From positions 186,001 through 250,000 of the forward strand of contig NZ_JAOVZR010000001.1 of NCBI RefSeq assembly GCF_026619415.1: a stretch of DNA of 64,000 bases, given 5' to 3'. Origin of the DNA: Hoeflea algicola (GTDB lineage: Bacteria; Pseudomonadota; Alphaproteobacteria; Rhizobiales; Rhizobiaceae). Positions 53,663-56,983 of the stretch are shown in pieces; position 1 is the stretch's first letter; every line of letters begins with the position of its first letter. The translations under genes and the position numbers were made by a program. The notes under the pieces are model-generated. The model did not search any database, was not told the origin of the DNA, and saw only the letters and a list, made by a program, of their open reading frames with translations.

Positions 53663-54571
53663 TCAGCCTGTCGCCAGCGCCTCCAGCCGTTCCTGCAGCG
53701 ACAGCAGATCAGCCCAGACGAACCGTTTTTGCGCCGGGTTGCGCAACAGATAGGCCGGGTGCAGCGTCGGCAGCGCCGGGATTGGCGCATCACCGGCCAG
53801 ATAGTCCATCCAGTTGCCACGGATCGACAAAATCCCCTTGTCGGTGCCCAGCAGTGACTTGCTTGCCACATTGCCGAGCATGACGACGATTTTGGGCGCA
53901 GCCAGCGCCACATGGCGCTCGATGAAGGGGCGACAGAGTTCGATCTCGTGCGGGGCAGGGGTACGGTTGCCGGGCGGCCGCCAGGGAATCATGTTGGTGA
54001 TATAGGCACTGTCGCGGTCAAGCCCGATGGCGGCCAGCATGCGGTCGAGCATCTGCCCGGCGCGGCCAACGAACGGCGCGCCCTGCAGGTCCTCATCGCG
54101 TCCCGGTGCTTCGCCGATAAACATCACCGGTGCTTCCGGGTTGCCGTCCGCAAACACCAGCGATTTGGCGCTATGGCGCAGATTGCAGCCGGTAAAGCCG
54201 TCGAGTGCTGCGCGCAGTTCTGCAATTGAGTTGGCGCCAGCGGCCAGCGCGCGGGCATGCTCGAACGCGGCCGCTCCTGGAACCGTCAACTGCGAGGCTT
54301 GCGGGTCCGGGGCAAGCGGTTGCGGGGCGGGTTTGCGGCTTGCGCTCGGCGCAGGCTGTGTTGCCGGGGATGAAGACGTTTGGCCCGGTGTCGTGGTCGC
54401 GCCGGCGTTGGGCTGCGGCTGCGGACGGCCGCGGGCCTGATGCGCCTCGGCAGTTTGCACGAACCGGTCGATCGGCGTGTCTTCGCACAGCTCTCCGACG
54501 CCGCTGTCGGCGTAGAAGTGCAGAAGTGCGGCCCATCCCGCCGGGTCCATTTCATGTGCCATGCTTGCCAT
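53663..54571 (-). CDS. Uracil-DNA glycosylase, family 4 type
   Basis: 302 residues. A variable, proline/glutamine-rich linker (about 45-90) joins an N-terminal segment to the glycosylase domain: [20 protein letters not shown] (motif 1), [36 protein letters not shown] and [17 protein letters not shown] (motif 2). Family 4 enzymes bind a 4Fe-4S cluster through four cysteines; some are visible (C in FTGCNLR and ELCRPF), but the second N-terminal cysteine is not obvious. It removes uracil from DNA. Confidence 0.92.
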
Positions 54572-54672
54572 CGCCCGATTCTATCTGATGGGCCATGCAG
54601 TGGGAAGGGGCGTAATCGACCCGGTCCACCGTGCTGTGCGTCTTCAGGTTCACGTCGCTTGCATATTCCTAC

Positions 54673-54684
54673 ATTCCATGGAAT
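54673..54684. promoter_or_regulatory. Perfect 12-bp palindrome before the ArsR gene, probable operator
   Basis: ATTCCATGGAAT is fully palindromic and lies six bases before the ArsR start codon, set in an AT-rich stretch (GCATATTCCTAC...AATAAAAG) unlike the surrounding GC-rich DNA. ArsR dimers bind short AT-rich palindromes at their own promoters, so autoregulation is likely. The next gene would be controlled with it. Confidence 0.6.
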
Positions 54685-54690
54685 AAAAGA

Positions 54691-55020
54691 ATGACGGACA
54701 CTCAAGTTGCCGTCAAGGTTCTCTCTGTTCTGGCCCATGAAGGCCGCGTTTTACTGCTTCAAACACTGGTGCAGGCCGGTGAAAAGGGCGCATCTGTCGG
54801 CGCATTGGCCGAGGCAATCGGGCAAAACCTCAAAACCGTCTCCGCGCAGTTGCAACTGATGGCCGATGCCGGGCTGGTGCGCGCCCGCCGCGAGGGAAAG
54901 CAGATGATCTATTGTGCGCAATACGACACACTTGGCGCGCTGTTTTCCTTCATCATGCATGATTGCTGTGGCGGTCACGAAGACCTGCGCCGCACCGTGC
55001 TGCGGGTGTGCAAATGCTGA
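54691..55020 (+). CDS. ArsR/SmtB-family regulator with cysteine-rich C-terminus
   Basis: 109 residues from ATG 54691. Winged helix: VKVLSVLAHEGRVLLLQTLV, GALAEAIGQNLKTVSAQLQL (recognition helix), ADAGLVRARREGKQMIYC. Five cysteines all lie in the C-terminal third: C75, the pair C92-C93 with H96 in HDCCGGHED, and C107/C109 in the final VCKC. The classical ArsR metal site (CxCxxC in the recognition helix) is absent. A C-terminal site for arsenite, a soft metal or a thiol-reactive compound is therefore inferred. It overlaps the following gene by seven bases, so the two are expressed together. Confidence 0.85.
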   Translation: MTDTQVAVKVLSVLAHEGRVLLLQTLVQAGEKGASVGALAEAIGQNLKTVSAQLQLMADAGLVRARREGKQMIYCAQYDTLGALFSFIMHDCCGGHEDLRRTVLRVCKC

Positions 55021-56285
55021 CCCCGGCTTCAAACGCCAATTGCTGCGCGACAACGGCCGTCGCCGAGATCAACCGCTCCTGCCATTGCCTGCCGTTTGAT
55101 GCTGCCGTCCGTCGGGATCGGGTGTCATCCGGCAGTCACAATCCGCGGCTGCCAGGCCTGCTCGCGGATCGGCCCGGGCTCTATGCCGGCACGGCAGTGT
55201 TCCTTGCCCGCGACCACTACCTGCAGATGGCCCAATTGGTGGAGGCAGTTGCCCACAGCACGGAAACCAACTCTTATGAGGTAGCCATTCACGCACGTGA
55301 TCCAGGTATCGACCTGACGTGCCAGCAGGAAAGCCAGGGCCTGTTGATGGGTTTTGATTTTCATGTCTCGGCCGATGGGCCGCGGCTGATCGAAATCAAC
55401 ACCAATGCCGGCGCGGCCTTCCTCGCCAAGCAATTTGCCGAGCCAGGGTCATCCTGTTTGCCTGTCGGAACAAACCGTCCGGATTTTACCGAGTCCCGGC
55501 TCGACGATTTGCTGGTGTCGATGTTCTTGGACGAATGGAACACTCTGCGACGGGGCGAACAACTTGGTACGCTCGCCATTGTCGATGAGAATCCCGAAAA
55601 CCAGTATCTCTACCCCGATATGCTGCTTGCCGCCGAACTGCTCAATTCGCGTGGTATTCGCACGCTGATTGTCGACCCATCGGCGCTTACCTATCGCGAC
55701 GGCGCATTGCGCCATGACGGTGAAACCATCGATATGGTCTATAACCGGCTCACCGACTTCAAACTCGAAGCCGACAGCAGCCGGGCGCTGCAACAGGCAT
55801 ATCTGGAGGACGGGGCGGTGATCTCGCCGTCGCCGCGCCACCATGCGCTCTATGCCGACAAGCGCAATCTCGTGCTGCTCGGTGGCGCTGATGGTACGCC
55901 TGGAGCGGTGGAGGCCGATCTCCGCGTCATGATTCCGCTGACGCAAACGGTTGGCCTGATCGATCCGGCAGCTGCCTGGAAGGCGCGCAAGTCCAAGTTT
56001 TTCAAACCCGCGGGCGGCTTTGGCAGTCGGGCTGCCTATCGTGGAGACAAGCTGACGACGGGTGTCTGGAAGACCATTCTGAACGGGGATTATGTTGCCC
56101 AGCAATATGTTGCGCCCGCCGATCGTGGTTTGCTGGTGGATGGGGTTCCGGTGCGGCTCAAATTCGATATCCGGCTCTACGCCTATGCCGGCAAGCCGTT
56201 GTTCCCGGTGGCGCGGATGTACTCGGGGCAGACCACGAATTTCCGTACGTCCGGCGGCGGTCTGGCTCCGGTGATCCTGGTTTGA
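55014..56285 (+). CDS. ATP-grasp-like protein with cysteine-rich N-terminus, function unknown
   Basis: 423 residues from ATG 55014, inside the ArsR stop region. The N-terminus carries C10-C11 and C23-H-C25 (NANCCATTAVAE, then SCHCLPFD). The body has features of a glutathione synthetase- or circularly permuted ATP-grasp enzyme: GLLMGFDFHVSADGPRLIEI followed by NTNAGAAF, TIDMVYNRLTDFKLE, SKFFKPAGGFGSRAAYRGDK (glycine-rich ATP loop) and VRLKFDIRLYAYAG. ATP-grasp enzymes ligate a carboxylate to an amine or thiol. The substrate is unknown; pairing with a cysteine-rich ArsR suggests metal(loid) or thiol-stress physiology. A terminator follows on the opposite strand. Confidence 0.7.
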   Translation: MLTPASNANCCATTAVAEINRSCHCLPFDAAVRRDRVSSGSHNPRLPGLLADRPGLYAGTAVFLARDHYLQMAQLVEAVAHSTETNSYEVAIHARDPGIDLTCQQESQGLLMGFDFHVSADGPRLIEINTNAGAAFLAKQFAEPGSSCLPVGTNRPDFTESRLDDLLVSMFLDEWNTLRRGEQLGTLAIVDENPENQYLYPDMLLAAELLNSRGIRTLIVDPSALTYRDGALRHDGETIDMVYNRLTDFKLEADSSRALQQAYLEDGAVISPSPRHHALYADKRNLVLLGGADGTPGAVEADLRVMIPLTQTVGLIDPAAAWKARKSKFFKPAGGFGSRAAYRGDKLTTGVWKTILNGDYVAQQYVAPADRGLLVDGVPVRLKFDIRLYAYAGKPLFPVARMYSGQTTNFRTSGGGLAPVILV

Positions 56286-56304: not shown

Positions 56305-56336
56305 AAAAACCGCCCGGAACGAGGTCCCGGGCGGTT
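56305..56336 (-). terminator. Rho-independent terminator of the ribosomal operon
   Basis: AACCGCCCGG (56308-56317) pairs with CCGGGCGGTT (56327-56336). Read on the minus strand the stem is followed by TTTTT (complement of 56305-56309), the standard form, 27 bases after the rplI stop. It may also help end the convergent ATP-grasp-like transcript. Confidence 0.85.
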
Positions 56337-56362: not shown

Positions 56363-56983
56363 TCAGGCGTTGTATTCGTTCTCGCCGGCGCCTTCATTGC
56401 CTTCGCCGTCTTCGTCGTCATTGTAGTCCGGATCGTTGGCAGCAGCTTCTTCTGCTTCCGCAACGGCTTCCTCATCAATGCCATAGATGGCATCGGCGGA
56501 GGAAAGATCCTCACCCTTGAACTGACGCTCGGCTTCATCAGCGGAACGGGCAACGTTGAAGGTCACTTCGACATTGACTTCGGCATGCAGCGCCAGCGGC
56601 ACGGTGTGCAGGCCGATGGTTTTTACCGGGTTGTTCATGTCGACCTGGCTACGGCCGATGGTGAAGCCGTTGTCGGCGAGAACGGCGATCACGTCGCGGG
56701 CAGCGACTGAACCGTAAAGCTGACCGGTTTCGCCGGCCGAACGGACGACCACGAAGGTCTTGCCGTTGAGCTTTTCGGCGATCTGCTCGGCTTCCGTCTT
56801 GCGCTCGAGGTTACGGGCTTCCAGCACCGTGCGCTCGGCTTCAAAACGGGTCTTGTTGGCGGCGTTGGCGCGCAGCGCCTTGCCCTGCGGCAGCAGGAAG
56901 TTGCGTGCGTAGCCGTCGCGAACCTTTACAGTGTCGCCCATCTGGCCGAGCTTGGCGATGCGTTCAAGAAGAATGACGTCCAT
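56363..56983 (-). CDS. rplI: 50S ribosomal protein L9 (bL9)
   Basis: 206 residues: the N-terminal rRNA-binding domain [20 protein letters not shown] and [16 protein letters not shown] is followed by the long connecting helix and the C-terminal domain ([19 protein letters not shown]). It is longer than E. coli L9 (about 149) owing to an acidic tail of about 45 residues ([18 protein letters not shown]...), common in rhizobial L9. AAGGA precedes the start. Last gene of the rpsF-rpsR-DUF2232-rplI operon. Confidence 0.97.

Follow-up and report, generated by a model that had tools for sequence, protein, structure and literature searches.

ELCVCDL is the cysteine motif of type 1 (R773) ArsR repressors. 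According to one account (PMC11868830), the type 1 As(III) site of R773 consists of Cys32, Cys34 and Cys37 in the DNA-binding domain, and the metal site of AfArsR, the type 2 repressor of Acidithiobacillus ferrooxidans, is formed by Cys95, Cys96 and Cys102. The same account cites an AfArsR-like repressor of Shewanella putrefaciens (SpArsR) that is missing the third cysteine and is reported to respond to MAs(III) but not to As(III). PMC11212059 describes a peptide modeled on the AfArsR site whose affinity for Hg(II) greatly exceeds that for As(III). The described systems closest to the enzyme of this work are GshB (PF02951/PF02955) and the circularly permuted type 2 ATP-grasp proteins (PF14403/COG2308), and, for gene organization, ars operons of the arsR-arsC-acr3 or arsI-bearing kind. 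The initial annotation knew of no characterized system in which an ArsR is coupled to such an enzyme, and we found none in open-licence PMC, nor any paper there on the enzyme family. Matches there dealt with COG2308, with Pfam DUFs, with MysC-like enzymes of algae and with a Nitratiruptor table; in the latter (PMC10092412), NIS_RS04835, an ATP-grasp domain protein, stands among the genes differentially transcribed under cadmium and copper.

The window analyzed here is a stretch of 64,000 nucleotides from Hoeflea algicola. ORF analysis of the window gave the two genes of the cassette (Table 1), each opening with ATG, and their coordinates bear out the earlier remark that they overlap by exactly 7 bases. 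ORF listings run both genes further upstream to alternative starts; comparison with homologues supports the ATG starts. The cassette is flanked by udg, MFS and rplI genes (the rplI name is our own reading of its sequence), no metal gene was recognized beside it in the window, and its G+C content of 60.0% matches the 61.4% of the window. The view of this locus as a self-contained ArsR-enzyme unit is supported. A phage origin was considered and dropped, with no match in the phage collection.

Table 1. Features of the cassette and its flanks (positions of the window).
Feature	Position	Strand	Basis
Family-4 uracil-DNA glycosylase (udg), left flank of insertion site	53663..54571	-	TIGR00758, 198.7 bits vs cut-off 125.3
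Probable ArsR operator, 28-bp two-layer dyad ATTC-N4-ATTCCATGGAAT-N4-GAAT	54665..54692	.	Conservation; binding predicted
ArsR/SmtB repressor, 109 aa, AfArsR-like DCC motif and terminal CxC	54691..55020	+	Family scan, alignments
Circularly permuted ATP-grasp-like protein, 423 aa, N-terminal NxxCxC motif	55014..56285	+	Alignment (C23), hhalign
C23-x-C25 motif codons	55080..55088	+	C23 invariant, C25 in at least 90% of 75-row alignment
LIEINTNA codons (residues 125-132), E-x-N segment	55386..55409	+	E127, N129, N131 invariant; hhalign
Terminator-like hairpin, 13 pairs, between cassette and rplI, on rplI strand	56308..56336	-	Consensus scan
Ribosomal protein bL9 (rplI), right flank of insertion site	56363..56983	-	Adjoins udg in 10 empty sites

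The perfect 12-bp palindrome reported ahead of both genes is present at 54673-54684 (ATTCCATGGAAT), 7 to 18 bases 5' of the arsR ATG. By itself it is weak evidence, since the window holds 27 perfect palindromes of this length against about 16 expected in random sequence. The exact palindrome occurs once in the 5.18-Mb genome, and the attempt to derive a regulon from it was abandoned: ATTCCNTGGAAT was found at four genome sites, the exact palindrome at only one. When the upstream regions of six Hoeflea genomes were compared without gaps, 18 of 35 positions in the block around the palindrome were invariant vs. 3 of 71 further upstream. The palindrome core is perfect in four of the six (G003 and G007, loci L003 and L005, deviate), and outer half-sites RTTC and GAAT, four bases off the core, are kept in all six. 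This dyad, whose right end reaches two bases into the arsR start codon, is probably the ArsR operator. A consensus scan of the plus strand found no sigma-70-like promoter; this result and the position of the dyad over the arsR start suggest that the cassette transcript may be leaderless.

The ArsR protein passes the NCBIfam HTH_metalloreg (NF033788) cut-off with 60.3 bits vs. 55. It has five cysteines (C75, C92, C93, C107, and C109) and ends with DCCGGHEDLRRTVLRVCKC. Since no cysteine occurs in residues 1-74, the classical ELCVCDL site is absent and the type 1 (R773) Cys32/34/37 arrangement is lacking, as the initial annotation had it; the C-terminal cysteines that it pointed out are present as C92-C93 and C107-x-C109. 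Of the type 2 features, the C-terminal vicinal pair is found in C92-C93, invariant in 39 aligned rows, and a third cysteine soon after the pair (five residues between in AfArsR) is missing: AfArsR Cys102 aligns with L99, and C107 and C109 stand further on. A phmmer search of the PDB aligned the window ArsR through the CC with 6j05_A (entry named Transcriptional regulator ArsR), which we presume to come from A. ferrooxidans. We listed 58 ArsR rows, the window protein included: 25 of the Hoeflea type, all of which keep (D/E)CC and the terminal CxC, and 33 others, which are DCCGG/NCCGG repressors. Fourteen of these 33 were aligned with the Hoeflea type; all 14 have the CC, and by eye 13 of them have a third cysteine four to six residues past it that is absent from the Hoeflea type. 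On these alignments the window regulator falls within the arsenic-type AfArsR/DCCGG group as a variant and is not a wholly new sort. It shares with AfArsR the winged-helix ArsR fold and the vicinal cysteines in the C-terminal region, and differs in having L99 in place of the third ligand, a terminal C107-x-C109, and no ars genes after it. SpArsR resembles it in being AfArsR-like without the third cysteine, whereas no terminal CxC appears in the description of SpArsR from which the likeness is drawn (PMC11868830). Because the Shewanella MAs(III) sensor has no third cysteine and the AfArsR-site peptide prefers Hg(II), possible inducers are MAs(III), As(III) coordinated by C107/C109, and other soft ions. 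The earlier idea of a metal(loid)-responsive unit gains from the metal(loid) context of the relatives described below; its regulator groups, as a variant, with the arsenic-type repressors.

For the second gene, 7691 of 8000 scored candidates passed E 1e-3 in the family search, and the enzyme family is therefore large. A few of the relatives listed carry UniRef names of circularly permuted type 2 ATP-grasp proteins. In 75 aligned rows, C23, E127, N129, N131, K283, K331, D385, R387, and G414-G416 are invariant and C25 is kept in at least 90%. The enzyme begins with CC and CHC as first described (C10-C11 and C23-H24-C25). By eye, the CxC is kept in 23 of 23 full-length Hoeflea-type rows; the N-terminal CC, found in 18 of 23, is not strictly conserved even in this close group. 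More widely, the CxC pattern stands ahead of the E-x-N motif in 80 of 107 distinct family members and is missing in 27, including a short-form clade. Curated families recognize the enzyme at best remotely. No Pfam family exceeds its cut-off for the window enzyme, which has no match up to E 1 to CP_ATPgrasp_2 (PF14403; cut-off 32 bits). Weak matches among the 75 members are to ATP-grasp_3 (15 members), TTL (11), and CP_ATPgrasp_2 (4), the best E value being 0.00082 for an ATP-grasp family and 0.0032 for CP_ATPgrasp_2. PF14403 scored 15.3 bits with one rotated member, and in a genome scan 23.1 and 20 bits, both sub-cut-off, with two short-form members (G350 and G364). The GSH-S_ATP domain was absent among the matches of the 75 members in native order and of five put in GshB order. 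This rotation brought no gain in the Pfam scan, so the permutation claim rests on hhalign and on our reading of the motif order.

In hhalign comparisons the enzyme family aligned with GshB over 195 columns (score 40.2, 19 target sequences) and with CP_ATPgrasp_2 over 169 columns (score 45.9, 24 target sequences), and 12 block-shuffle controls reached at most 24.9 and 28.3, respectively; the similarity is thus beyond the shuffled controls, at probabilities of only 44 and 64%. A second hhalign alignment, weak alone (E 0.1), places the E-I-N segment, which is near the C-terminus of GshB, at the N-terminal side here. The PDB sequence search gave no match for the window enzyme and one at E 1.4 for the 75-row profile. 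The enzyme is likely a circularly permuted ATP-grasp protein: the earlier label of ATP-grasp-like enzyme agrees with the weak family matches and the profile-profile similarity, and no curated cut-off is passed. There is also no clear match to a known housekeeping ligase. With PF14403/COG2308 proteins, two true members of which are encoded elsewhere in G000, the family shares an E-x-N motif that precedes both N-domain and lid (seen by eye in a single PF14403 sequence), and it differs by its sub-cut-off scores, NxxCxC N-terminus, and metal-linked neighborhoods. With GshB it shares the hhalign similarity and a recognizable E-I-N segment, but the segment order is permuted and a GSH-S_ATP match is lacking; an ordinary GshB is also encoded in the genome of the window.

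These matches bear on what an ATP-grasp ligase might act upon. The enzyme could modify a protein under metal stress by adding an amino acid or short peptide, like tubulin-tyrosine-ligase-like or RimK-like ATP-grasp enzymes, and the sole Pfam match of the window enzyme up to E 1 is indeed to TTL (17.3 bits vs. cut-off 20.1), which 11 of the 75 members also match weakly. This TTL match spans only 40 residues, however, against the 195 and 169 columns aligned with GshB and CP_ATPgrasp_2; RimK-like rows gave no hhalign signal above the reversed control, and inspection by eye of the listed operon partners (90 candidate ORFs, many probably spurious) brought out no protein that recurs. We consider protein modification unlikely, and it is the main rival of a dedicated thiol or peptide product, the reading that we prefer.

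Within the genus, the enzyme gene was found in 7 of 18 genomes (G000, G002, G003, G007, G008, G011, and G017), the G008 gene being a fragment where its contig ends. All six holders with enough sequence have arsR immediately 5' of the enzyme gene and in the same orientation (L002 and L004, with identical contig coordinates, are counted as one locus). G003 has a second copy (L009) that is 40% identical, on another contig and without ArsR. In 10 of the 11 genomes without the gene udg is directly beside rplI, an empty site; in the remaining one (G005) the contig ends at udg. In a tree of the two left-hand neighbors, a single clade of nine rows (support 91, not starred) takes in the six holders that have a udg locus together with three non-holders, which makes three changes in all; the simplest reading is one gain followed by losses. 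In three orders the enzyme occurs at E 1e-60 in 20 of 150, 12 of 145, and 32 of 150 genomes. ArsR is directly upstream on the same strand in seven alphaproteobacteria of another order (G608, G1011, G1018, G1023, G1027, G1076, and G1096), that is, in 7 of 30 testable loci of an order in which 32 of 150 genomes have the enzyme (G1028 and G1063 gave no locus). All seven ArsRs have the CC motif, and in several lineages the arsR stop and the enzyme start overlap or abut. In G608 and G1011 the enzyme gene is followed by what we take, from sequence, to be DedA-like and glutathione-S-transferase-like genes. The suggestion that ArsR-enzyme adjacency might recur across genomes holds for these seven genomes beyond Hoeflea, but most relatives examined have no adjacent ArsR.

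Copper resistance is a commoner neighborhood of the relatives than an adjacent ArsR. Thirty-one plasmid records hold a relative, nearly always annotated as a hypothetical protein, and 23 of these neighborhoods were read, mostly one per genus. Explicit copper annotation (CueR, multicopper oxidase, CopB, CopC, copper nitrite reductase, etc.) is found in 16 of the 23, a mer cluster in one (pMR68), and no explicit copper label in six (L046, L047, L048, L060, L061, and L063). Since the copper markers were picked from plasmid islands, the plasmid set is no independent test; the genomic set is. The latter comprises 55 loci, none longer than 20 kb, drawn from 54 genomes (G583 contributes two), Hoeflea excluded, several of them shortened by contig ends, and 40 control regions from 26 of these genomes with long contigs. 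At strong thresholds copper markers occur in 18 of 55 neighborhoods vs. 0 of 40 controls (Fisher p 2e-5), or 16 vs. 0 without DUF305. Looser thresholds gave 22 of 55 vs. 1 of 40, four of the 22 (L162, L165, L175, and L176) being weak or unspecific; by eye the L165 match is probably a potassium-pump subunit.

Several single neighborhoods had features of their own. On pMR68 of Pseudomonas sp. K-62 (L042) the relative is preceded by mercury genes (one of the MerT family, merF, merA, and one of the alkylmercury lyase family), and a Tn3-family transposase gene follows some kb later. A phospholipase-D-family gene is near the enzyme gene in L046 (pSCD of Sulfuricella denitrificans), where ATP synthase genes follow directly, and in L043 (plasmid of Hoeflea sp. 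IMCC20628). In L140 and L148, from one genus, an OsmC-like gene (by eye) directly precedes the enzyme gene.

Relatives of the enzyme are also embedded in ars operons of the arsR-arsC-acr3 and arsI-bearing kinds, whereas the Hoeflea cassette has the regulator and enzyme only. The gene orders are arsR-enzyme-arsC in G1096, arsR-arsC-acr3-enzyme in G821 (acr3 over TIGR00832 with 368 bits vs. 282.8), and arsR-arsI-arsC-enzyme in G796 (ArsI/CadI at 78 bits, under the 116 cut-off; arsC from tblastn and by eye). In G776 the operon opens with an R773-type arsR (NF007528, 105 bits vs. 97) and closes with the enzyme gene; between them lie two arsC genes, one on either side of acr3 (identified by eye), and then a permease gene. 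The three ArsC proteins scanned match with E values of 5e-17 or lower but stay under the equivalog cut-offs. An ArsC-like match was found in 5 of 55 neighborhoods vs. 0 of 40 controls, a difference that by itself falls short of significance (p 0.07). In a tree of 107 rows the ars/ArsR and copper labels are both more clustered than shuffles; the former changes 7 times and the latter 18 times, of which at least 6 and at least 13, respectively, are forced by starred branches. The changes may be losses, and two long branches meet in this tree. We assigned its labels manually and transferred them from the wide loci to the short ones; the copper label includes L048 and L061, with merely suggestive annotation, and L102 and L139, judged weak, and L009 is labeled other though its wide locus, L043, is a copper plasmid. 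The soft-metal(loid) link of the enzyme family is well supported. These operons also weigh on a different view of the regulator, in which ArsR senses thiol or redox signals (disulfide, persulfide, or sulfite) through the vicinal cysteines and the enzyme serves redox or sulfur metabolism. Vicinal cysteines with a terminal CxC would fit disulfide sensing as well, and ArsR scores 43.6 bits against BigR, a sulfite-sensing repressor (cut-off 155). Yet the arsenic-type CC motif is carried by the nearest ArsR relatives and by the other enzyme-adjacent ArsRs, arsenic-type ArsRs head the enzyme-holding operons of G1096, G821, and G796, and the loci that we examined group the enzyme family with copper and arsenic genes, all of which makes redox sensing distinctly improbable.

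A short form of the enzyme, in many cases about 355-400 aa and without the N-terminal CxC, occurs mostly once per genome in several lineages (G349-G377 and related; loci L026-L040), the majority of them without a strong GshB match. By eye, no metal gene was recognized within 1.5 kb of it, and it adjoins an MFS-like transporter or SbcC-like ATPase in L028, L034, L036, L038, and L039. Among 40 genomes searched (G000 left out), strong GshB (E <=1e-45) was found in 4 of 22 family-positive vs. 15 of 17 family-negative genomes. Replacement of GshB by the family as a whole was rejected, as the short-form rows form one clade and the GshB contrast cannot be separated from lineage. With PF08886, the only GshA family covered, 2 of 31 genomes gave a GshA match. 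One of them, G349, encodes this glutamate-cysteine ligase at L294 (G349:C48:44504-45688) and has no strong GshB; because of this combination, something else may finish glutathione in G349, or the cell may stop at gamma-Glu-Cys. The short form, mostly once per genome and with no metal gene recognized close by, and the 37 of 55 neighborhoods without a copper marker at strong thresholds would also suit a ligase of general housekeeping function that is carried along with metal islands, plasmid-borne or genomic, its pairing with ArsR being incidental. We regard this as very doubtful in view of the patchy occurrence in the three orders, the ArsR stop/start overlap or abutment in several lineages and the position inside ars operons, and the excess of copper markers over controls.

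We propose, with a probability of about 50%, that the Hoeflea locus is a two-gene, self-repressing soft-metal(loid) cassette whose ATP-grasp ligase produces a metal-binding thiol or peptide or alters an existing one. The operon layout, the conservation, the repeated association with copper and arsenic clusters, and the remote ATP-grasp similarity are observed; the DNA binding, inducer, reaction, and product that we infer would be as follows. In the unstressed cell an ArsR dimer on the dyad over the arsR start would block both genes. Once inorganic or methylated trivalent arsenic, or a different soft ion (Cu(I), for example), had bound C92-C93 together with C107/C109, the loaded repressor would leave the DNA, and the ligase would be made. 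The permuted ATP-grasp ligase would then join a carboxylate to an amine or thiol, most likely building or modifying a metal(loid)-binding compound with a thiol group, either a small molecule or a peptide; the enzyme CxC probably binds the metal or the thiol substrate. Since relatives stand beside copper-handling genes as well as arsenate-reduction and arsenite-efflux genes, the enzyme may supply something that both need, a cytoplasmic thiol ligand or repair of a thiol target. A bolder version, which we hold only tentatively and think rather unlikely, is that the enzyme is a permuted counterpart of GshB in ars, cop, and mer clusters that makes a dedicated low-molecular-weight thiol or cysteine peptide to chelate As(III), Cu(I), and Hg(II), a bacterial parallel, driven by ATP, to phytochelatin synthesis, run in Hoeflea by its own arsenic-type repressor; in the short-form lineages the enzyme might even replace GshB. 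Much work has gone into copper and arsenic resistance clusters, yet a family of enzymes found repeatedly in both is annotated as hypothetical protein in nearly all of the plasmid records. If our proposal of a metal-binding thiol made or modified by the ligase is true, the family would add an enzymatic chelation branch to soft-metal defense, beside efflux, reduction, and methylation, and the Hoeflea two-gene cassette, with its own repressor and candidate operator, would be the smallest version seen here for testing it.
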